Source: Planctomycetota bacterium (GTDB lineage Bacteria; Planctomycetota; UBA11346). From it: a DNA stretch of 33,163 nt. Positions 1,093-12,131 of the stretch are shown here, piece after piece. Where the stretch lies: contig REDP01000155.1 in the NCBI GenBank assembly GCA_007693455.1, forward strand, positions 1 through 33,163, written 5' to 3'. The position numbers and the translations under genes were made by a program. How positions within the stretch are numbered: position 1 is the first letter of the stretch; the number at the start of each line of letters is the position of its first letter. The notes beneath the pieces are model-generated. The model was not told where the DNA came from. It saw nothing but the letters and a program-made list of their open reading frames with translations, and did no database searches.

Positions 1093-2772
1093 ATGACGAC
1101 GACTATTATTGTTGGTGGTGTGGCAGGGGGAGCCTCATGTGCCGCACGTTTGCGCCGTTTGGATGCGCATCACCGCATTATTATTGTTGAGCGCGGACCG
1201 CATGTGAGTTTTGCCAATTGTGGTTTGCCGTATTATGTGGGTTCGGTCATTGATGATGAGCGCAAATTATTAGTGACCTCGCCGCAGTCGTTGACGGACC
1301 GTTTTGCCCTGGATGTTCGGGTACATACTGAAGCTACCCATATTGATGCACAGCAGCGTCTTATAACCCTTCATGACTTGGCAACAGGACGTACTTACCA
1401 AGAGTCCTACGATAATGTGGTGTTGTCCCCAGGTGCGGCACCGCTGCGCCCTCCCTTTCCTGGCCATGATTTGCCCCAGGTGTACACCATTCGTAATGTC
1501 CCCGATGCCATGCGAGTGCGGCAGGTCATTGATGCCAATGCAGCTCAACCCTTGCGCGCAGTAGTGGTGGGCGGTGGATTTATTGGTATGGAGATGGCCG
1601 AAAACCTTCGTCATCGCGATGTGACCGTTGATTTGATTGAGGGGAGTGAGCAGATTATGCCTCCTTTAGATCGCGATATGGCGGGCCTCCTGCAGACCCA
1701 GGCTGAGGCCCACGGGGTGCGTATTCATTTGCGGCATATGCTCAGTGGTGTCTTTTCCCTGGCATCTGGTGGCGTCCGCGTTGAGGCCACGGGAGCAGAT
1801 GGCGAAGCGCTCCATGTAGAGGCGGATATGGTGGTTTTGGCCATTGGTGTGCGTCCCGAAAGCAGCCTTGCCAAAGCTGCTGGCTGCGACCTTGCTGAGC
1901 GGGGCCATATTATTGTCGATGCGCAGATGCGCACCAGTCAGGAGCATATCTTCGCGGTTGGAGATGCGGTGCAGATCCGCGATGTAGTAAGTGGGCAACC
2001 AACTGCCGTTCCCTTGGCGGGGCCAGCAAATCGTCAGGGACGTGTGGCCGCTGATGTGATAGTGGGACGGTCGGGACGTTCCGCACAATTTCGCGGCACC
2101 CAAGCCACAGCTGTTTTAGGTGCTTTCGGACTGACCGCAGCAACCACAGGCCTTTCTCTTAAGCAGTGTCGTAGCTATGGTATCGAACATGCTGTGGTCC
2201 GCTTGCATCCAGGAGATCACGTTGGGTATTACCCAGGCGCTACCCCGATCCACTTACAATTGTGCTTTCATCCCCGCACACGGCGTATTCTTGGTGCTCA
2301 GGCAGTGGGGGAGCACGGTGTTGATAAACGCATAGATGTCATTGCTATGGCCATCCAAATGCAGGCCACGGTTGATGATCTGGCAGAAAGTGAACTGTGC
2401 TATGCGCCGCAATTTGGCGCAGCGAAGGACGCAGTTAACTTAGCCGGAATGATTGCAGCCAATCATTGTGATGGGATTGCTCCAGTGGTCGAGATTGAAT
2501 CCCTCGATAGTTCTCAAGATCTCGTGGTTGATGTGCGGCCAGAGCCGATGCAGCCAGCGGCGTGCTGGCCACAGGCGCAGCATATTCCTCTGACCCAATT
2601 ACGTGATCGTATGCACGAACTCCCCAAAGATCGCCCCTTAGCAATTCTTTGTAACGTAGGTCAAACCGCCCATAATGCTACCTGCCTGCTCCGGCAACAC
2701 GGTTTTGATGCGCGCACCATTACTGGGGGTGAGCGCAGTTTGGGGCTCCTTGGCGCTTGTCAGGAGACCTAG
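1093..2772 (+). CDS. CoA-disulfide reductase with C-terminal rhodanese domain (CoADR-Rhd)
   Basis: A flavin- and NAD(P)H-dependent disulfide/persulfide reductase of 559 residues. The FAD-binding motif IIVGGVAGGASCAARLRR is at the N-terminus. The single redox cysteine is in SFANCGLPYYVG, Cys43, the same number as in the classical CoADR family. A second nucleotide-binding fold begins near AVVVGGGFIGMEMAE (about 160-175). VFAVGDA-type FAD contact and the dimerisation domain follow. Residues from about 470 form a rhodanese domain with the loop CNVGQTA (Cys520). Such fusions reduce CoA polysulfide/persulfide. The start at 1093 has GGAGG eight bases upstream; an ATG at 1087 would be only two bases from it. 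The stop shares the palindrome CTAG with the convergent selD stop. Symbols vary for this family, so none is given. Confidence 0.93.
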   Translation: MTTTIIVGGVAGGASCAARLRRLDAHHRIIIVERGPHVSFANCGLPYYVGSVIDDERKLLVTSPQSLTDRFALDVRVHTEATHIDAQQRLITLHDLATGRTYQESYDNVVLSPGAAPLRPPFPGHDLPQVYTIRNVPDAMRVRQVIDANAAQPLRAVVVGGGFIGMEMAENLRHRDVTVDLIEGSEQIMPPLDRDMAGLLQTQAEAHGVRIHLRHMLSGVFSLASGGVRVEATGADGEALHVEADMVVLAIGVRPESSLAKAAGCDLAERGHIIVDAQMRTSQEHIFAVGDAVQIRDVVSGQPTAVPLAGPANRQGRVAADVIVGRSGRSAQFRGTQATAVLGAFGLTAATTGLSLKQCRSYGIEHAVVRLHPGDHVGYYPGATPIHLQLCFHPRTRRILGAQAVGEHGVDKRIDVIAMAIQMQATVDDLAESELCYAPQFGAAKDAVNLAGMIAANHCDGIAPVVEIESLDSSQDLVVDVRPEPMQPAACWPQAQHIPLTQLRDRMHELPKDRPLAILCNVGQTAHNATCLLRQHGFDARTITGGERSLGLLGACQET

Positions 2773-3818
2773 GCAGGGACAGAGGAAAGAATCTCAACGT
2801 GGGTGGGTCCCTCGACAACCTCGCCGATAATCGCTGCGACGGTATCCCCTCCAGCATGGAGGTCAGCGAGAAGATCCTGCACTTGTTCCTGTGCCACAGC
2901 CATCAAAAGACCGCCGCTGCTTTGCGGATCGCAGGCTGCATGCCGCTGTATGGGGTCAAGATCTTGATCAAGCCGCAGGCGTTCGCCGGCGTAACGAGGA
3001 TTACCATGATCGCCACGTGTCAGACAGCCAGCGGCAATAGCATCGGCCAAACCGGGAAGTAAGGGAAGCCTAGGGCCATAGATGCGCAGATGTGCTGCAC
3101 TGGCGCTAGCGAGTTCAGCGGCATGCCCCACTAGGCCGAAGCCAGTGATATCAGTCGCAGCCCGAATCTGGTAGCGATGGAGGCAAGAGCCAGCATGGGC
3201 ATTGAGGCGGGTTAAACTCGCCGCCAAGGCCTGGGCTCCGGTTGTATCCAAACAGTCTTTTTTGAGGGCGGTGGCAAGAATGCCAGTGCCCAGGGCTTTG
3301 CTGAGGATCAAAGCATCTCCAGGCCTGGCCCCACCATTGGTGATGGCAGATTGCCCCGGCTCAAGTCGTCCAGTAATGGCCAAACCGAAACTCATTTGCT
3401 CGCAGCGAATGCTATGGCCGCCAATAATCGGGCAGGCGGCTTGCGCGCAGATATCGGCTGCCCCTTGCAGTACCTGGGTCAATACCTCGGCCCCCAGGGA
3501 CTCGGGATAATGGACAATGCTCAGGGCGTAGAGGGGGCTTGCGCCCATGGCATAGATATCGGAAAGAGCATTGGCCGCCGCCGCCGCACCGTAGGTGTAG
3601 GGATCATCAACGATGGGGGTAAAAAAATCGGTGGTGGCCACTAGTGCACTGCCATCGGCTTGGGCAAAGACGCCAGCATCATCGCTATCGCCAAACCCAA
3701 CCAACACGCGCTCATCCTGCGGCCAGGTAATCTGTCGCAGGACCTGTTGCAGAAATACCGGGTCAACTTTGGCGGCACAGCCGGCACAGCTGACCGTTTG
3801 GGTGAGTTTGGGGCTCAT
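2769..3818 (-). CDS. selD: Selenide, water dikinase (selenophosphate synthetase)
   Basis: SelD makes selenophosphate from selenide and ATP, the donor for selenocysteine and selenouridine. The 349-residue product has the normal length. The N-terminus holds the catalytic pair Cys14 and Lys17 in CAGCAAK (Cys17/Lys20 in E. coli), so this is the Cys form, not a selenoprotein. GFGDSDDAG, ATTDFFTPIVDDP and GGHS provide the ATP/metal-binding aspartates and glycines. The open frame extends upstream through the tRNA gene to 3947, but the SelD family starts at MSPKLT, with AAAGGG upstream of ATG 3816-3818. It lies 43 bases after the mature 3' end of tRNA-Sec on the same strand and downstream of the transporter, so the group forms a selenium locus. 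It ends in a four-base overlap with the convergent reductase gene. Confidence 0.96.
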   Translation of the reverse strand: MSPKLTQTVSCAGCAAKVDPVFLQQVLRQITWPQDERVLVGFGDSDDAGVFAQADGSALVATTDFFTPIVDDPYTYGAAAAANALSDIYAMGASPLYALSIVHYPESLGAEVLTQVLQGAADICAQAACPIIGGHSIRCEQMSFGLAITGRLEPGQSAITNGGARPGDALILSKALGTGILATALKKDCLDTTGAQALAASLTRLNAHAGSCLHRYQIRAATDITGFGLVGHAAELASASAAHLRIYGPRLPLLPGLADAIAAGCLTRGDHGNPRYAGERLRLDQDLDPIQRHAACDPQSSGGLLMAVAQEQVQDLLADLHAGGDTVAAIIGEVVEGPTHVEILSSVPA

Positions 3819-3861
3819 GGGGATGCCCTTTATGTATGATAGGGTAGGGGAGAAACAGCTA

Positions 3862-3955
3862 TGGCGGGAAAGGATGGGAGTCGAACCCACCTGGGATGCA
3901 GGCACCCCATCACGGCTTTGAAGGCCGGAGGCCGCACCGGCGACCACCCTTCCCC
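3862..3955 (-). tRNA. selC: tRNA-Sec, anticodon UCA
   Basis: Read on the minus strand, the molecule has an 8-bp acceptor stem (GGGGAAGG with CCTTTCCC, one G-U). A 6-bp D stem GGTCGC/GCGGCC has a four-base loop. The anticodon loop is CTTCAAA, with TCA at bases 3919-3921. A long variable arm runs from TGGGGTGC to GCATCCCA. The T arm is GTGGG-TTCGACT-CCCAT, the discriminator is G and an encoded CCA lies at 3862-3864. The long acceptor, 6-bp D stem and UCA anticodon together are diagnostic of selenocysteine tRNA. The anticodon stem has four clear pairs and a C-U mismatch at its outer end. It sits between the transporter permease gene and selD, on the same strand as both. Confidence 0.95.
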
Positions 3956-4186: not shown

Positions 4187-4996
4187 TCATGCGGCAACCA
4201 TGCGTTTGCGCAGGAAACTACTGCACCAATCGACGAGAATAACCAGGGCGAGAATGATCAGAATGAGTGCCGATAGTTCCTGGTATTTGAGTACCCGTTG
4301 GGCAATAATAATTTCTGAGCCAATGCCGCCTGCACCAATAATGCCCAATACCACAGCGGCACGGATATTGCATTCCCAGCGAAACAAAGTGACATCTATC
4401 AGCTGCGGCCAGACCTGGGGAATCACTCCGTGGGTAATAACTTGAAAACGATTGCCGCCGCAACTGCGCACTGCCATAAGGGGTTCGGGTTGTGCGTGTT
4501 CCATGATTTCGTGATAAAATTTCCCCAGCATGCCGGCGCTGTGGATCATGAGTGCCACACAGCCTGCCACCATACCTGGGCCCAATAGGATGACTAAACC
4601 AATGGCTAAAAGTAGTTCTGGGATGGTGCGCAAGCCTCCCAGGAAGCTGCGCACAGGCGCCGGCAGTAAGCGATGTGGCGAGAGGCCGCGCGCCGCCAAC
4701 AGGGCCATGGGAACCGCTAAGACAACGCCGCCAGCAGTTCCCACGACAGACATGATCAGCGTATCCCTAAGAGGCTGGAGCCAATGCCTGGAAAATGGAC
4801 TAAAATCAGGGGGTAGGGTTTGTTGTATCAAAAAATCCAGACGACCGAGCAGGCGCCAGAATAGCCGCACGTCGAGCATGCCGCTGGCCCAGGCGCAGGT
4901 AATGACCACCCCGGTAAGCCCCAGAATGGTCACCAGGGTGCGTATGCGCTGCCAGAAAAGGATGCGCCATTGGCGCTGCCAGGGGGGCTGTGTCAT
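4187..4996 (-). CDS. ABC transporter permease, PhnE-like (probable selenium oxyanion uptake)
   Basis: A polytopic inner-membrane protein of 269 residues with hydrophobic segments near residues 20-40, 78-101, 125-155, 213-232 and 240-262. The permease EAA-type loop is recognisable around residues 170-195 (AVRSCGGNRFQVITHG followed by P). It belongs to the phosphonate/phosphite transporter permease family. It begins directly after the stop of the binding-protein gene (TAG-ATG), so translation is coupled. Position beside tRNA-Sec and selD suggests selenate/selenite-type uptake rather than phosphonate, and there are no C-P lyase or phosphonatase genes nearby. The substrate is inferred from context only. 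Confidence 0.88.
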   Translation of the reverse strand: MTQPPWQRQWRILFWQRIRTLVTILGLTGVVITCAWASGMLDVRLFWRLLGRLDFLIQQTLPPDFSPFSRHWLQPLRDTLIMSVVGTAGGVVLAVPMALLAARGLSPHRLLPAPVRSFLGGLRTIPELLLAIGLVILLGPGMVAGCVALMIHSAGMLGKFYHEIMEHAQPEPLMAVRSCGGNRFQVITHGVIPQVWPQLIDVTLFRWECNIRAAVVLGIIGAGGIGSEIIIAQRVLKYQELSALILIILALVILVDWCSSFLRKRMVAA

Positions 4997-5884
4997 CTAT
5001 CGATAATCCGCCACCGTTTTTTCCAGCTCGCGCACAATATCGTAGTCCTGATCACTCACTGGGCCAAAGCCATCGGCCTGCATGGCTGCCAGGATATCGG
5101 CATCATCCAATTGCAGAAAGGCATCGCGAATGGCTCTTTGCAGGGCAGGGGATAAATCCGAACGCATGGTCCACGGATATTGCGGGTAGGACGGACTTTC
5201 CGCAATCACCACGGCGTGCTGCGGGTCAATGCTGCCTTGTTCCACCAGGCGCGTATAGATGCCTACCGACATCCCGCCAGCAGCTACATTCCCTGTCGCT
5301 ACATTCATCGCTACGGCATCATGGGACCCTAAAAAAACTTCATTGTAGTCATGGCGCGGCCGGAGATTTTCAGCCAAGAGCATGCGTTTCGGGATCAGAT
5401 GACTCGAAGTGGACCCGGGATCGCCATAGGCCATGGTTTTCCCAGCAATATCGCTGATGGTACGCACCCCGCTGTCGGGATTGGCTATAATAATACCGGT
5501 GTAGGTAGTACTCCCGCCGCGTTTTTTAGCGGCAAAGGGTTCAATATGGGTGCCAGCATCTTTGCATACGATGTAGGTGGCAGGGCCAAAATAGGCCAGG
5601 TGCAAATGCCCCGAACGCATGGCCTCCACCATAATGCCATAGTCATGGTGGACCACCAACTCCACTTGGCGTTGCAAGCGTTCTTGCAAAAAGTTTTTGA
5701 GTCCATCATGCAGGCGGAGGATTTCTGCCGGATCTTCATCGGGTAAGAGCGCCACCACTAGCGTTTCCGGCTCAAGATTGCCTTCGGCTTGCGGCGGCGT
5801 ACCGATGCCATCGGGGTCGCTAGAACAAGCCATGCTCACATACAAAATTATGAGTAGCATACTGGTAAATGCGAAGGTGCGCAT
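4997..5884 (-). CDS. ABC transporter substrate-binding lipoprotein, PhnD-like (putative selenate/selenite binder)
   Basis: A periplasmic binding protein of 295 residues. The signal peptide ends VSMAC with Cys20 as probable lipid anchor (aliphatic residue at -4). The PhnD-family core is clear: VVALLPDEDP, the segment MRSGHLHLAYFGPATYIV, IIIANPDSGVRTISDIAGKT and YGDPGSTSSHLIPKRML. I recall a defined clade of this superfamily annotated as a putative selenate-binding component because it co-occurs with selD, and this gene's context fits it. GTG 5891-5893 would overlap the previous stop. ATG 5882-5884 is preferred because GGAG lies eight bases upstream. It is the third of four tightly spaced genes. 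Phosphonate or phosphite binding cannot be excluded from sequence alone. Confidence 0.88.
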   Translation of the reverse strand: MRTFAFTSMLLIILYVSMACSSDPDGIGTPPQAEGNLEPETLVVALLPDEDPAEILRLHDGLKNFLQERLQRQVELVVHHDYGIMVEAMRSGHLHLAYFGPATYIVCKDAGTHIEPFAAKKRGGSTTYTGIIIANPDSGVRTISDIAGKTMAYGDPGSTSSHLIPKRMLLAENLRPRHDYNEVFLGSHDAVAMNVATGNVAAGGMSVGIYTRLVEQGSIDPQHAVVIAESPSYPQYPWTMRSDLSPALQRAIRDAFLQLDDADILAAMQADGFGPVSDQDYDIVRELEKTVADYR

Positions 5885-5889
5885 AGGGA

Positions 5890-6708
5890 TCACTCCATGG
5901 GGATGAGGTGGTGACGGGTCGGGGCAAATACGGGCGGGGGAGCGGCGAGGCTGTGATCGGATTGTTGTGGGTGGTCATTCCCGTAAATCTGGTGGAGATC
6001 GTTGTGGTGTAAGGCAGCCGGAGGCCCATCAAAACAGATACGTCCTTGGCGTAGACCAATAATGCGATCCGCCCAGGATTGCGCCGCCTCCACCTGATGC
6101 AGGCTGACCAGTAAGGCCCGTTGTGGATCGTCGCTTAAGAGCGTGCCCAAAAGCTGTAAAATATCTCGCCCCGTTTGTGGATCGAGACTGGCAATGGGTT
6201 CATCGGCCAGCAGTACCCGAGGGTGCTGCAGGAGAGCGCGGGCAATGCCTACGCGCTGGCGTTGTCCGCCGGAGAGTTGGCGTACCGGACGATGTGCCAG
6301 GGTGCTCAAGCCCACCCGCTCCAAGGCGGCAAAGGCCGCGGTAATATCGGCACGAGGCCACCACCAGCAACTACCCCAGATGCTGCGCCTGCCCAGGCGC
6401 CCCAAGAGCACATGCCACAGGGCGCTTTTGCGAGGAATCAGCGCGTGATCTTGAAATACCATACTCACCTGGCACCGCCATTGCCGAGAATTGGCTGTGC
6501 GCAACTGGGGATCGTCGCTGTAGATCGTGCCCTGCTGCGGCTCTTGCAACTGCGCCAATACACGCAATAGACTTGATTTTCCCGCACCACTGGGGCCCAG
6601 AAGAACGGTGCGTTGACCTGGTGAGAGATGCAGATCCACCCCATCCACCGCAGCGTGTTCGCTACCAGGGTAGCGCACCTGAATGCCCTGGGCGCTGATG
6701 ATACTCAT
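5890..6708 (-). CDS. ABC transporter ATP-binding protein, PhnC-like
   Basis: A 272-residue ATPase with Walker A GPSGAGKS (38-45), Q-loop Gln86 (VFQDH), signature LSGGQ (145-149), Walker B VLLADEP (165-171) and switch His204 in VSLHQ. It energises the permease encoded two genes downstream. Compared with PhnC, the helical region has a Trp-rich insertion (GSCWWWPRAD, near 112-121) where PhnC also carries an extended loop. About 40 residues after the D-loop region form a polar His/Pro-rich tail. It overlaps the desulfurase gene by ATGA and is followed after five bases by the binding-protein start, so the four genes form one operon. Confidence 0.93.
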   Translation of the reverse strand: MSIISAQGIQVRYPGSEHAAVDGVDLHLSPGQRTVLLGPSGAGKSSLLRVLAQLQEPQQGTIYSDDPQLRTANSRQWRCQVSMVFQDHALIPRKSALWHVLLGRLGRRSIWGSCWWWPRADITAAFAALERVGLSTLAHRPVRQLSGGQRQRVGIARALLQHPRVLLADEPIASLDPQTGRDILQLLGTLLSDDPQRALLVSLHQVEAAQSWADRIIGLRQGRICFDGPPAALHHNDLHQIYGNDHPQQSDHSLAAPPPVFAPTRHHLIPME

Positions 6709-7856
6709 GACAGCTGCTCCATAGCGCGATCAATACTTCGGCAGAGTTGACTGAGGTCTTCGGCGGTATTTTCTGGCCCGAAACTGAAACGGAGCGTTGC
6801 CTGCGCCAGTTTGGGATCGACGCCCATCGCCGCGAGACTGGGGCTGGAATGTTGCTGGCCAGCATGGCAGGCTGAGCCAGTGCTGGCAGCCACCTGAGGC
6901 ATGTGCGCCAAGAGGTTAGCGGCACTTATGCCTGGAAGCGCCACAAAGCTAGTATTGGGCAGGCGTGGGGCGTCAGCCCCATGGATGAGCGCGTTATAAC
7001 GCTTGCACAGGTGTGCTTCCAATTGATCCCGCAGGGTTTGCAAACGCGGCATGTGAGTGAGTCTTTGCGGGCAGTCGGCGCAGGCAGCCCCTAGGGCAGC
7101 AATCTGGAGCACATTTTCACTGCCCGCGCGCAGTCCTCGCTCATGGCCAGCGCCACGAATAAGGGGTGGCAAGGGTATTCCTGGGCGGATCCAGAGCGCT
7201 CCCACACCTTTGGGTGCGCCCAATTTATGTCCGGCAATAGCGAGATAATCAGCATCCAACTGACCAACATTCACTGGGATCTTACCCAGTGATTGGGCAG
7301 CATCGCAGCCCACCAACGTTCCCTGAGCGTGAAAGTGCTGACTCAGGGCTGAGATGGGCTGAATAACCCCTGTTTCGTTATGGGCATGCATCACCATGGC
7401 GAGACGCGGGGCTGCATGGGAAGCGGGTTGCGTATCCTCGACAAGCCCCTGGGCGGTGACCGCAATGCGGCTGAGCGTATGTCCGCGCTGAGCCAAATCG
7501 TGTGCCGGTGTGGTTACTGCTGGGTGCTCAATGGCGCTGATTGCCAGGGGACATCCCGGATACATGCGGGCCACACCGTAGAGGATCTGATTCAGGGACT
7601 CGCTGCCCCCAGAGGTGAAAATAATATCCTCTGCCTGGGCCCCAATGGCACCCGCAACCTGGTGGCGTGCGTCTTCTACGATGGCGCGCGCCTGCCGCCC
7701 GGGCGCATGGCTGGCGCTGGGGTTGGCAAAGCCCTGATCCATGGCCTGGAACATGGCGGCCCGCGCCGCCGCCGACAGGGGTGTGCTACCGTTATGATCC
7801 ACATAGATAAATGCGTGGTGCTGCGAATGCGTGGTTGATGACATACGACAATGCAT
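6705..7856 (-). CDS. NifS/IscS-type cysteine desulfurase (possible selenocysteine lyase)
   Basis: A PLP enzyme of 383 residues. N-terminal YVDHNGSTPLS matches the NifS opening, IEHPAV and AHNETGV follow, and the PLP lysine is Lys211 in AGHKLGAPKG. HERGLRAGSENV is the phosphate-binding region, and the persulfide cysteine is Cys330 in STGSACHAGQ. The long loop around Cys330 puts it with group I (IscS/NifS). Such enzymes release sulfur from cysteine or selenium from selenocysteine. Being the first gene of an operon with the transporter, next to selD, it probably delivers selenide. ATG 7844 (MSSTTH) is an alternative start; neither has a strong ribosome-binding site, which fits control by the structured leader. 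No scaffold protein gene (iscU, sufE) is adjacent. Confidence 0.93.
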   Translation of the reverse strand: MHCRMSSTTHSQHHAFIYVDHNGSTPLSAAARAAMFQAMDQGFANPSASHAPGRQARAIVEDARHQVAGAIGAQAEDIIFTSGGSESLNQILYGVARMYPGCPLAISAIEHPAVTTPAHDLAQRGHTLSRIAVTAQGLVEDTQPASHAAPRLAMVMHAHNETGVIQPISALSQHFHAQGTLVGCDAAQSLGKIPVNVGQLDADYLAIAGHKLGAPKGVGALWIRPGIPLPPLIRGAGHERGLRAGSENVLQIAALGAACADCPQRLTHMPRLQTLRDQLEAHLCKRYNALIHGADAPRLPNTSFVALPGISAANLLAHMPQVAASTGSACHAGQQHSSPSLAAMGVDPKLAQATLRFSFGPENTAEDLSQLCRSIDRAMEQLS

Positions 7857-7876
7857 GCCGAATCACCGGGATCGGG

Positions 7877-7913
7877 CTCTCGTACTGGTGCATGATGTTC
7901 GAGAGATGTCTCG
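7877..7913 (-). promoter_or_regulatory. Mutually exclusive hairpins before the desulfurase start
   Basis: On the minus strand CGAGA (7909-7913) pairs with TCTCG (7900-7904) around a four-base loop. The same TCTCG, extended to CTCTCG, can instead pair with CGAGAG (7877-7882) across a 17-base loop. The two structures exclude each other and lie between the UGA leader frame and the desulfurase start at 7856. This is a switch-like layout. No T-run follows, so control of translation is more likely than termination. Confidence 0.35.
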
Positions 7914-7923
7914 GCCACCTGCG

Positions 7924-7986
7924 TTAATGATCTGTGGGCGACACCCTGCCGACCCCAAGAGCGCACAGTCAACGGCGATACGGCAT
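7924..7986 (-). other. UGA-interrupted leader frame with SECIS-like hairpin (candidate)
   Basis: AAGGAG lies four bases before an ATG (7984-7986) opening MPYRR and then TGA (7969-7971). If the UGA is read as selenocysteine the frame runs 14 more codons to TAA, giving 20 residues. Directly after the UGA, CTGT can pair with ACAG (7965-7968 with 7932-7935). Within this lies an upper stem of GGG/CCC, a single bulged U (7952), then four pairs including one G-U, closing the five-base loop AGGGT (7943-7947). Bacterial SECIS elements have this form: a bulged U, an upper stem of at least four pairs and a loop with G near its 5' end, about 16-37 bases after the UGA (21 here). The sequence features are direct; the role is inference. 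Confidence 0.35.
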
Positions 7987-8017
7987 GACGCTCCTTTCGG
8001 GATCGGGTGCAGGGGGA

Positions 8018-8046
8018 ACCATACCAATAAATCTAGCAGCATCCAA
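8018..8046 (-). promoter_or_regulatory. Candidate promoter of the selenium transport operon
   Basis: On the minus strand TTGGAT (8041-8046) and TATGGT (8018-8023) are separated by 17 bases. Transcription from here would give a leader of about 155 bases before the desulfurase, containing the UGA leader frame about 25 bases in. The boxes are imperfect (three and four of six bases). The rest of the 295-base gap between 7857 and the terminator at 8152 shows no other gene. Confidence 0.3.
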
Positions 8047-8151
8047 TCTAATGTCATTGATGGAAAACGCCACAGCCCACGGTGTTTCACGGCGGCCCAA
8101 AGCATGTCATTAATAAGGATGGTCCGCTTTGCGGGAGCATGTTTATAGATC

Positions 8152-8189
8152 AAAAAAAACGCCCCAGCATTAGCGGGGCGTTTTTTTTT
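8152..8189. terminator. Bidirectional intrinsic terminator
   Basis: Eight A residues, the stem CGCCCC/GGGGCG with a nine-base loop, and nine T residues form a symmetrical terminator. It lies 41 bases past the stop of the isomerase-like gene on the minus strand and insulates it from the selenium operon. It can work in both directions. Confidence 0.92.
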
Positions 8190-8229
8190 GGGGGGGTCGG
8201 GATGTCAGTGATCCCAGTGGTAAGCTGTG

Positions 8230-9963
8230 CTAGTGGCCAGCAAGGCGGAGTTTGGCTTCGGTTTCACCGCCGGAGATACGGTAGAGCATGGGAGCCATGC
8301 GATCCAGGCCTTCACTAAAGTCAGGCGTGTTTTCCCAACGGAAGTTGAGGACGTTAGTGAAATCCGAGAACCATTGCCAGCGGCGACGGGGAAGATTTTG
8401 CACCATGTGCATATGGTTGGCTGGGCAGCCATATTTGGTAATGGAGGCCGGCACGTGTTCAAAGGTAACCCAGGTATGCGGCCAGGTGTAGCTGCTGGCA
8501 TGGCAGAAGGCTTCGGCAATCTCGCTGGGCAGTTCCACCGATTGGGCTTCGTCTTGAATCATGGTGAAGGTGCCAGTCAGTTCCGAATAGGCCAGACGAC
8601 CGGCTTGGCATTGGATACCACCGGGGGAAATATACCCGGTAGAGAAGCCGCCGCCGGGGAAGTAATGCTTGAAGACCTCAAACAGGTAGGAGTCCTCAGC
8701 CCAGTCCAGTGACCCGGAGCCAGAGTTATCCATGTCGATGGTGCCGCGTTGCATGTAGGCGGCATTGGGATCCAGGGTGATGCCCAGCTCATCAGCTTTC
8801 TTTTGGATCTCCCAGGGTTCGTACACTTTACGATAGTCGGCAAAGAGAATGGGTTCGCCGCCGGTAAGGGCTGCGTAGCAGATCATGGTGAGGAGACCTT
8901 GCAGGTCATTCTCGGTGGCAAAGGGAATGGCCGCCTTTTTGCCACGATGATCGAAGGTGGAGTTAAAGAGCGCTTCGGCAATATCGGCACAAGCCATGGG
9001 CGTGCCGGTAAGGTCTGACCCCCAGGCCAATTGACTGGTCCAGCCACCGCCAATGCAGTTGAGTTGGGCCATGCGATCGCGCAAGGTGAGATAGAGTTTG
9101 AGCTCTTCTTTGAGTTTTTCCTGGTGCAGCTTGGAGAGCTTGGGCGCCGGATGTTTCTGGGGGTTGCTATAGATATCCAAGCCCTTGGCGCACAGGCCTT
9201 CGGTATCGGTATAGATTTTATTTTTCCACTGCACTTGCGTGACCCAGTGGTAGAGCTCTTTGAGCTCTTCTTTATCAAAGCCTTTGTCATCACGCAGCAT
9301 ATCCGAGAAGATCTTCATGGATTCACGCACGCTCTCTAGGCCAAAATGCTTGCGCGCCGCATGCACGTGGTTGAGCGCGGTTTCCATTTGCATGGAGTCC
9401 ACATCGGAGGCGAAAAAGCGCTTGCCGCGGAGGTAGGAGGCGGCTGCCATGGCCCAACCCAGGTCAAGAATCTCGGTTTTGGTGGCGGGATCAAACTCAG
9501 GATCTTGTCCCACTTCGGGCATGGTGCCGATAATCGCTGGGCAGAGAATGCCCGTTTGCGCATAGGCACCCACCACTGCGTCAACACCCACCACCCCAGG
9601 CTTGGGGGCGTTATTGCCAGCAATACAGGCAATGGGGGTATTACGGGGGAATTGGGCGCTTAAGGCGATGGCAGTTTTGCCGGGGTAAAACCAGGTGTCG
9701 GGAACGATAATTAAGGCTTCGACGCCGGCCTTTTTAAAGGAGGCGGCCACTTCGTCGGCTTGCGCTTCGGTTTCGACGGTGCGATCGGCTACAAAGATAC
9801 CAGGCTTGGCATGACCACACAGGCGAATGCTTTTGAGCACCTTGGCAGTCATGGTAACGATATTGAGCGCCCGTTCACGACTGGGGTCATCAATACGTGG
9901 GTCGCAGGGGGCAAACAGGCCAATGGTGGGGGCTCCGGGGCTGGGCTTTTGCAAATACGCCAT
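8230..9963 (-). CDS. L-fucose isomerase-like protein
   Basis: This 577-residue protein is close in length to FucI and follows its layout. It has an N-terminal Rossmann-like domain (GLFAPCDPRIDD, IVPDTWFYPG, VGAYAQTGI) and a second domain (LRGKRFFASDVDSMQ). The active-site region has ADIAEALFNSTFDHRG, FATEND with Glu351, LFADYR with Asp376, and a C-terminal CPANHMHM with His517. These correspond to the Mn-binding Glu/Asp/His of E. coli FucI. It would interconvert an aldose and a ketose in the cytoplasm, but the true sugar is unknown. No fuculokinase, aldolase or sugar transporter is nearby. ATG 9961-9963 is chosen over upstream frames because AAGGAG lies ten bases before it. It has its own terminator. 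Confidence 0.85.
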   Translation of the reverse strand: MAYLQKPSPGAPTIGLFAPCDPRIDDPSRERALNIVTMTAKVLKSIRLCGHAKPGIFVADRTVETEAQADEVAASFKKAGVEALIIVPDTWFYPGKTAIALSAQFPRNTPIACIAGNNAPKPGVVGVDAVVGAYAQTGILCPAIIGTMPEVGQDPEFDPATKTEILDLGWAMAAASYLRGKRFFASDVDSMQMETALNHVHAARKHFGLESVRESMKIFSDMLRDDKGFDKEELKELYHWVTQVQWKNKIYTDTEGLCAKGLDIYSNPQKHPAPKLSKLHQEKLKEELKLYLTLRDRMAQLNCIGGGWTSQLAWGSDLTGTPMACADIAEALFNSTFDHRGKKAAIPFATENDLQGLLTMICYAALTGGEPILFADYRKVYEPWEIQKKADELGITLDPNAAYMQRGTIDMDNSGSGSLDWAEDSYLFEVFKHYFPGGGFSTGYISPGGIQCQAGRLAYSELTGTFTMIQDEAQSVELPSEIAEAFCHASSYTWPHTWVTFEHVPASITKYGCPANHMHMVQNLPRRRWQWFSDFTNVLNFRWENTPDFSEGLDRMAPMLYRISGGETEAKLRLAGH

Positions 9964-10145: not shown

Positions 10146-12131
10146 TTAGCCGTCATCGCGTACTTGGTCAAGAAAATGGAGATGGCGCTCGTATTGATCG
10201 AGAACGTCACTCAAAATTTGTTCACGTCGCCACCCCATGATGTCGTAGCCTTGCCCGCCTTCGCGGAGGAATACTTCGGCGCGATAGAAACGCGGTTCAT
10301 TCTTGGCGTCAATGCGTAAACGGGCAAAGGAAGGAGGGGTATACGACACCGGTTTTATGGCGTAGAAAAAATCCATTTCCTCGCCATGTGCCACTTCCAC
10401 CCAAACTTGCCCATCGTCATCGCCATGTACCTGGGCTGTAAGCCCTTCCTTATGCCATTCATTGGCAATGTCCTGTAAAGCAGGCCGTACCATATCAGAG
10501 AGAAAGGCCATGACATCACGTTGCTCTGGCTGACGGGTTACGGTGCGCAGGCGTTCTTGCCACGATACGGGCGATGTGGGGCTTTTGGGCATAACCATGG
10601 CGCGCTCAAGGCTAACACGTTTATTGGCTTCCAGTCGCAGTGCACGAAACAGGCCCCAGCACATAAAACACATAATAACGGTAAATGGCAGAGCACTGGC
10701 GATGGTCGCAGTTTGTAGGGCGACAAGGCCGCCAGCAATCAAGAGTACGGCAGCTACGGTGCCTTCGAGTCCTGCCCAAAACAGGCGCTGCCAGACAGGA
10801 GACTGCTCTTCACCGCCACTGGTCAGCATATCTACGACTAATGATCCTGAGTCAGAGGAGGTGACAAAGAAGGTGATGACCAAAATCGTGGCAGCACCTG
10901 ATACCACTGTGGCAAAGGGGAAGTGCTCTAAAAAGGCGAAGAGGGCAATCGCGGGGTTATCGTTGGCCTGATGCATGAGACTCTCATAGCCTTGCGCAAT
11001 GATGAGATGCAGGGCCGTATCGCCAAAGATGGTCATCCACGCCAAGGTAAAGCCAAGGGGGACAAGCAGGACGCCCACAATAAATTCACGGATGGTGCGT
11101 CCGCGCGAGACACGAGCGATAAACATGCCAACAAAAGGTGACCAGGCTATCCACCATCCCCAATAAAAAATGGTCCAACCACCGATCCAATCGGTGGGTT
11201 CGCGGGCATACAAATTGAAGGTCATACTAAAGATATGGGAGACATAGTCGCCAGTATTTTGTACCAAGGTTTGTAAAAGGAGAACGGTTGGTCCCATAAT
11301 CAATACAAACAGCATCAGGGCAATCGCAAGTACCAGATTGAGTTCGGAGATGCGTTTGATGCCTCCATTAAGACCCATGCCAACGGAAACCGCCGCCAAA
11401 AGAGTAATGCCTGCAATCAGCCATACTTGTATGCCAGTTGATTCGCTTACCCCAAAAAGGTGATGCAAGCCAGCGTTGACTTGCTGTACTCCGACGCCCA
11501 AGGAAGTGGCAACTCCAAAAATAGTTCCAAGTACAGCGAAGGTATCAACTGCATGGCCAATAGGGCTATAGATACGGTCGCCAATAAGCGGATAAAAAGC
11601 TGAACGAATGGTTAGGGGGAGGTCGTGACGAAAAGCAAAGTAGGCCAGCGATAAGGCGACCACAGCATAGATAGCCCAGGCGTGAATACCCCAGTGAAAA
11701 AAGGTCAGACGTATTGCTTGACGGGCAGCATCGATGGTTTGACCATCGCCTTGAGGCGGCGAATGATAATGCATGACTGGTTCGGCTACGCCGTAAAACA
11801 TGAGGCCGATACCCATGCCCGCACTAAAGAGCATGGCAAACCATGATTTGTAACTATAGTCAGGGGATGCGTGATCTGGCCCAAGTTTGATGTCGCCCAT
11901 GCGTGATAGTGCAATAAGAGCAACAAACACCAAGAAAGCGGCTACCGCTAAAACGTAAAACCACCCCACATGATGGACGATCCATGCTTACAGATGAGCC
12001 ATCCATACTTGCAGAGAATCAGGGATAAAGATGGCTACAATGACTAGCGTTAGGGTCAAAGCCAGTGATGTTATAAAAACTGGTGGATTAATCACGTACC
12101 ACGATTGCGCATGAGACTTGGGGTCACTCAT
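10146..12131 (-). pseudogene. BCCT-family transporter (BetT-like), interrupted by in-frame TAA
   Basis: A sodium- or proton-coupled betaine/choline/carnitine transporter. From ATG 12129-12131, with AGGA eight bases upstream, the frame reads INPPVFITSLAL and a first membrane helix. It then meets TAA at codon 48 (11988-11990) and continues without shift as AWIVHHVGWFYVLAVAAF through the whole BCCT core to 10146. FSAGMGIGLMFYGVAEP and the family signature GGWTIFYWGWWIAW are intact. A cytoplasmic tail of about 130 residues resembles that of BetT. The open part alone (GTG 11967-11969, 607 residues) would lack the first helix. A recent nonsense mutation, a sequencing error, or internal initiation could each explain this. 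Everything except the stop looks functional. Substrate is unassigned. Confidence 0.85.

Follow-up and report, generated by a model that had tools for sequence, protein, structure and literature searches.

The closest described system is the leader of the E. coli selAB operon, which reportedly, in work attributed to Thanbichler and Bock, carries a SECIS-like element serving SelB-mediated translational control, the SelB complex on this element being said to lower expression. The title of that leader study is cited in PMC8124441. For the SECIS elements of bacterial selenoprotein genes, a published model (PMC13188914) places the apical loop 16–37 nt from the UGA, with a folding energy of −7.5 kcal/mol or lower; as the criterion for the upper stem, 4–16 bp was used. 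The sensing and import of selenium by bacteria is an open question. According to the literature, prokaryotes have yielded no specific transporter with high affinity for selenium (PMC13188914, 2026), and a selenium-specific high-affinity transporter is known from no organism (PMC11097638, 2024).

We here describe, on the minus strand of a stretch of 33,163 nt that was analyzed as a whole (the window), a leader that resembles that of E. coli selAB in two respects: a SECIS hairpin of the SelB type lies in the 5′ leader of an operon for selenium machinery, as is the case in the window, in a relative of the same genus (G001) and in one of the same family (G012), and the proposed sensor is a feedback via the SelB–Sec-tRNA complex. 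It differs in that the window hairpin follows the UGA of a mini-ORF at a spacing proper for Sec insertion, and in that the controlled operon would encode a desulfurase, an ABC transporter, selC and selD rather than selAB. The selA-selB genes of the same genome had no such element within the contig examined, and none of the loci examined, including those of relatives, had a SECIS-type leader before selA, selB or selD. With the SECIS elements of selenoprotein mRNAs the leader shares the UGA, the 16–37 nt to the apical loop, the upper stem and the loop G, its structure being the same as in the CxxU and CGHU selenoprotein genes of the family, whereas it serves a 20-codon frame without conserved peptide and not a selenoprotein. 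The proposed mechanism is a novel form of leader control by SelB and SECIS. Our literature search, with subscription literature mostly outside its coverage, turned up no earlier description of a UGA-SECIS leader in bacteria, and if decoding of the UGA is the sensing step, we know of no earlier selenocysteine leader-peptide sensor.

The leader is found between the end of an upstream fucose-isomerase-like gene (8230) and the start of nifS (7856). A Shine–Dalgarno sequence AAAGGAG (7991..7997) precedes the mini-ORF ATG CCG TAT CGC CGT UGA ... UAA (7924..7986), with its ATG at 7986–7984, its UGA at 7971–7969 and its UAA stop at 7926–7924. Read with the UGA (7969..7971) as the predicted Sec codon, the product would be MPYRR-U-LCALGVGRVSPTDH. 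A spacer of 13 nt separates the UGA from the hairpin GGG-U-CGGCA-GGG-UGUCG-CCC (7936..7955), whose bulged U (7952..7952) is base 17 counted from the UGA, and which RNAfold folds into a 5-bp upper stem with a GGG triloop at −8.8 kcal/mol. The Shine–Dalgarno sequence, ATG, UGA and bulged-U hairpin of the original prediction were hence borne out (7997–7924), its ‘five codons’ before the UGA holding if the ATG is counted, as four codons lie between ATG and UGA, and its four upper pairs with loop AGGGU being an alternative reading of the same hairpin. It had also placed these features about 70 bases upstream of a NifS-PhnCDE-tRNA-Sec-selD locus, and both the gene order and the distance (67 nt from the mini-ORF stop to the nifS ATG) agreed. 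Farther upstream, at 8152–8190, there is an inverted repeat rich in GC, with an A-run on one side and a T-run on the other, resembling a bidirectional terminator at the boundary of the upstream gene and the leader; our terminator scan, limited to loops of 8 nt, may have missed it.

Downstream of the leader the genes follow in the order nifS-phnC-phnD-phnE-tRNA-Sec-selD on the same strand, with the ends of the first four overlapping or abutting. The nifS-like cysteine desulfurase gene (6705..7856) matched PF00266 and, below cut-off, TIGR03402 (298 bits, cut-off 530.75), and the phnC-like ABC transporter ATPase gene (5890..6708) gave 242 bits with TIGR02315 (cut-off 266.1). Above cut-off were the genes for the phnD-like substrate-binding protein (4997..5893; TIGR01098, 211.5 bits, cut-off 112.05) and the phnE-like ABC permease (4187..4996; TIGR01097, 250 bits), as well as selD for selenophosphate synthetase (2769..3947; TIGR00476, 328.7 bits), the true start of which is internal to this frame, after the tRNA-Sec. 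The tRNA-Sec gene (selC, anticodon UCA, 3862..3955) was found with ARAGORN and gave 79.4 bits with RF01852. A tRNA-Sec directly 5′ of selD, as at 3955–3862 of the window, was also seen in four other loci (L194, L195, L196 and L198), and in several of these five cases it lies within an open frame continuing into selD. The source genome, a draft assembly that is 91% complete, also has selA and selB (contig L041), together with tRNA-Sec, selD and a CxxU selenoprotein gene with the same hairpin, and selB was found in all three leader-bearing genomes.

Like the proteins of TIGR04553, a putative selenate ABC transporter family, the window PhnD is a binding protein of the phnD type whose gene is found with selenium genes, but its score of 160.8 bits is below the cut-off of 250 for that family. 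It is a candidate binder of a selenium compound. That selenium is the substrate of PhnCDE is suggested by the operon content and now also by the leader, which is a strong pointer in this regard, the substrate itself not being known. A leader that reads selenium status by Sec recoding would, if real, at once identify the PhnCDE-like system as a genuine transporter of selenium.

For the analysis of conservation we used PhnD as the probe in a sample of 392 genomes of the phylum. With NifS as query the best matches in a sample of relatives reached at most 45% identity, and the same-genus relative has no nifS at the transporter locus, so that the conserved partner of the leader is the transporter and not NifS. 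Only two other genomes of the 392 had a PhnD of more than 50% identity, G001 (63%) and G012 (56%), with no further orthologues above that level in the order. All three genomes with the orthologous transporter (at least 55% identity) carry UGA-N13/14-3bp-U-5bp-GGN, located 5′ of phnC in both relatives and 5′ of the operon start (nifS) in the window; the element is known from these three loci only, all of one family. The G001 leader reads GAGGAGGACGCC ATG CAA CGC GTC UGA-N14-GAG-U-CGGCA-GGC-UGUCG-CUC ... UAA, with GAGGAGG ahead of the ATG, and that of G012 reads CCU UGA-N13-GAU-U-CGGCA-GGA-UGUCG-AUC, on a contig also bearing selB, tRNA-Sec and selD. A core of 14 nt, TCGGCAGGNTGTCG, is identical in all three leaders, outside of which the leaders had no significant mutual similarity. 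The lower-stem pairs change by compensation, from GGG/CCC in the window to GAG/CUC in G001 and GAU/AUC in G012, with the UGA kept at 13, 14 and 13 nt from the hairpin, respectively.

A Shine–Dalgarno sequence with ATG is clear in two leaders only (window and G001), the sole in-frame start for the UGA frame of G012 being a GTG without a proper Shine–Dalgarno sequence. The predicted peptides of the relatives, MQRV-U-TRALRSRQAVAPP in G001 and (GTG)VLVTWKP-U-KPPCRFGRMSIETRAKRADVVNISAPSFQFI in G012, resemble neither each other nor that of the window, be it before or after Sec (MPYRR-U-LCALG, MQRV-U-TRALR and VLVTWKP-U-KPPCR). From the read-through stop to the first gene there are 67 nt in the window, about 136 nt in G001 and 12 nt in G012, and no downstream structure common to the three leaders was found. 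In G012 (L076, 8369–8460, minus strand) the phnC Shine–Dalgarno sequence is inside a 10-bp hairpin, the loop of which includes the stop that ends the read-through leader frame, with another strong hairpin 5′ thereof. An overlapping frame in the window (7863–8153), passing through the leader hairpin and ending 6 nt before nifS, was discarded, its relatives having, in sequences read by eye, no counterpart except for residues forced by the core.

We compared the leader hairpins with SECIS elements of selenoprotein genes from the same family. A molybdopterin formate dehydrogenase as their source had to be given up, none scoring above cut-off in the genome, and a gene beside selA was used instead. 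This gene (L041, 4960–5952, plus strand, on contig C37 of the same genome), divergent from selA-selB, encodes a secreted-looking, thioredoxin-like CxxU protein of 330 aa with one in-frame UGA within a CRGU motif and without any match in Pfam or NCBIfam. G001, G012, G010, G009 and G021 have homologues in which a single TGA occupies this position, a second branch carries CGHU or SGHU (G012, G013 and G022), and other paralogues have CxxC; because of this Sec/Cys exchange the CxxU and CGHU genes are true selenoprotein genes. The hairpins after their Sec UGA consist of 3 bp, a bulged U (C in G009), 4–5 bp and a loop of GGU, GUU or GGG. Their distance from the UGA is 12 nt in three CGHU-type genes versus 13–14 nt in the leaders, while in the CxxU branch the hairpin is farther away, in some cases with an extra hairpin between.

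When 12 SECIS elements were aligned, 94.8% of the cells paired, with double changes at seven of the eight pairs and T as the bulged base in 11 of the 12, and slid controls for the pairing all gave 50% or less. A shuffle control on the number of doubly changed pairs was weaker (12/500), kinship not having been removed. A covariance model built on nine selenoprotein SECIS elements and no leader, run unfiltered on the window and three contigs, ranked the CxxU gene, a training member, at 27.5 bits and the three leaders at 22.0, 22.0 and 20.5 bits, over a background of at most 11.7 bits; the leaders had E-values of 0.002–0.006, and the next match an E-value of 2. The leader hairpins have a GGN triloop, a 5-bp upper stem (within the 4–16 bp allowed) and a 3-bp lower stem, and the distance from UGA to GGN loop, 22 nt in the window and G012 and 23 nt in G001, is within 16–37 nt. 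The 20-nt hairpin alone folded at −8.8 (window), −6.7 (G001) and −5.3 kcal/mol (G012), and with 55 nt of context at −15.8, −11.7 and −8.2 kcal/mol. A conserved protein sequence flanking the UGA, as is a criterion for selenoprotein genes, is lacking in the leaders. Judged from its sequence, and without SelB-binding data, the hairpin of the leader is a genuine SECIS as used in this lineage.

In 6 Mb simulated by a first-order Markov model with the dinucleotide make-up of the window, a UGA followed after 11–16 nt by a hairpin of this form arose 13 times, of which six had an in-frame start and none a Shine–Dalgarno sequence with ATG; in the real window it occurs once, at the leader. Chance as the origin of the leader element is excluded, the element being settled as real by its conservation and by the covariance model, for which only SECIS elements independent of the leaders had been used. 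The original prediction, in which it was stressed that chance must be excluded, thereby passed its preset test, with the UGA frame and bulged-U hairpin kept in three of three genomes, the expected covarying stem was found as two compensatory lower-stem changes among the three leaders, and the hairpin it had called SECIS-like could be upgraded to a SECIS of the type used by selenoproteins of the lineage. The core pattern alone was discarded as a marker (33 matches in 23 family genomes, nearly all in GC-rich, coding-like sequence), although a UGA about 16–20 nt 5′ of the core occurred only in the three leaders among 30 inspected core occurrences (0/27 of the others), and a wide gapped pattern scan was drowned in chance matches. 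Across the 392 genomes, model R1 gave the leaders, CGHU-type genes and otherwise weak matches only, those inspected being without diagnostic context. Four more distant PhnCDE systems (L077 and L079–L081), with identities of about 47%, all lacked the element and were taken as a different clade; in L077, L080 and L081 the sequence 5′ of PhnCDE resembles LysR-type regulator genes, and L078, cut by its contig end, was left out of this comparison.

A SECIS at such a distance from a UGA recruits SelB–GTP–Sec-tRNA. Since the leader hairpin matches the selenoprotein SECIS of the lineage, the leader UGA very probably attracts SelB with Sec-tRNA, the binding of SelB being inferred. Sec insertion in E. 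coli needs enough selenium and competes with RF2 (PMC4513850), and the leader should consequently report the level of Sec-tRNA. In the mechanism that we propose, nifS-phnCDE-selC-selD would be transcribed with a leader frame of roughly 20 codons having its own Shine–Dalgarno sequence and ATG. With abundant Sec-tRNA, SelB–GTP–Sec-tRNA would dock on the SECIS and the UGA would be read as Sec, or the complex would sit on the leader, and with selenium in short supply ribosomes would stop or pause there. Different stretches of the leader RNA would be covered in the two cases, which may in this way set translation or transcript survival of the selenium-supply genes. As in attenuators of the trp and his type, a short ORF led by a Shine–Dalgarno sequence lies before a supply operon and codon decoding would report one amino acid; the differences are that a single UGA is decoded by SelB and that no intrinsic terminator or antiterminator was found, with no intrinsic terminator in 7700–8260, a range that takes in the window leader. 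The analogy to amino-acid attenuators drawn beforehand can therefore be kept for the Shine–Dalgarno–ATG start, clear in two of three leaders, and not for the terminator, the lack of which before nifS makes translation-level control or another route of termination likelier than a trp-type attenuator.

By analogy with E. coli selAB, uptake genes would more usually be under negative feedback, and high Sec may lead to less uptake here, a direction that we favor somewhat as a prior but that is not established. With the G012 read-through frame ending in the loop of the stable hairpin in which the phnC Shine–Dalgarno sequence is enclosed, reading through the UGA could open phnC, i.e. give selenium-dependent activation; the leaders of the window and G001 are without this arrangement.

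That the leader senses selenium, with either UGA recoding versus termination or SelB occupancy controlling the operon, we consider likely, SelB binding, Sec insertion and regulation all being inferences made without expression or selenium-response data. One sub-case of such sensing, differing in the role of the UGA, is control by SelB alone as in E. coli selAB, where SelB–GTP–Sec-tRNA on the 5′ hairpin would block or alter translation of the first gene and the UGA and mini-ORF would be incidental or serve ribosome positioning. The SECIS structure being the best-conserved part, the lack of a convincing start codon and Shine–Dalgarno sequence in the UGA frame of G012 and the precedent of E. coli selAB keep this possible, if doubtful, in view of a UGA at 13, 14 and 13 nt in all three leaders (roughly a 5% chance each, for a range of three positions) and of the Shine–Dalgarno sequence and ATG ahead of it in two. 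We lean, by no more than a little, to a Sec-recoding leader, the first such, which would read selenium status through the decoding of one UGA via SelB and SECIS, and would control tRNA-Sec, SelD and an ABC transporter dedicated to selenium uptake. If true, leader-peptide sensing would come to include the 21st amino acid as well as recoding, and the SECIS-UGA leader, a short RNA suited to reporter fusions, offers a testable sensor.

Readings without selenium sensing fared worse. A very small selenoprotein of about 20 aa, itself the important product, would account for the presence of Shine–Dalgarno sequence, ATG, UGA, SECIS and stop, yet the peptides of the three genomes differ on both sides of Sec and we find this reading improbable. 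The near-palindromic core 5′ of transporter genes could be a DNA operator, with a transcription factor binding the inverted repeat CGRCA-NNN-TGTCG; such a site would explain neither the G-T position that in all three leaders pairs only as RNA (G-U), nor the T unpaired on one side only, also in all three, nor the location 3′ of Shine–Dalgarno sequence and ATG in two leaders at a fixed distance from the UGA, nor the same structure within selenoprotein coding sequences after the Sec UGA, and it is disfavored as very improbable. Scarcely credible is a functionless remnant of a selenoprotein gene that has decayed: the G012 leader hairpin is indeed like the SECIS of that genome's own CxxU gene (16/20 bases), but the element has been kept at the same place in three genomes despite diverged flanks, with compensatory stem changes.

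In another family of the phylum (L042 in G035, 192–2393), a gene for a NifS-like desulfurase is directly followed by selD, with the leader element absent from the 188 nt available. The window, finally, holds a BetT-like BCCT transporter gene (12131–10146, minus strand) with an in-frame TAA near 11988 after 47 plausible N-terminal codons, which could reflect a pseudogene, a sequencing error or a GTG start further downstream.
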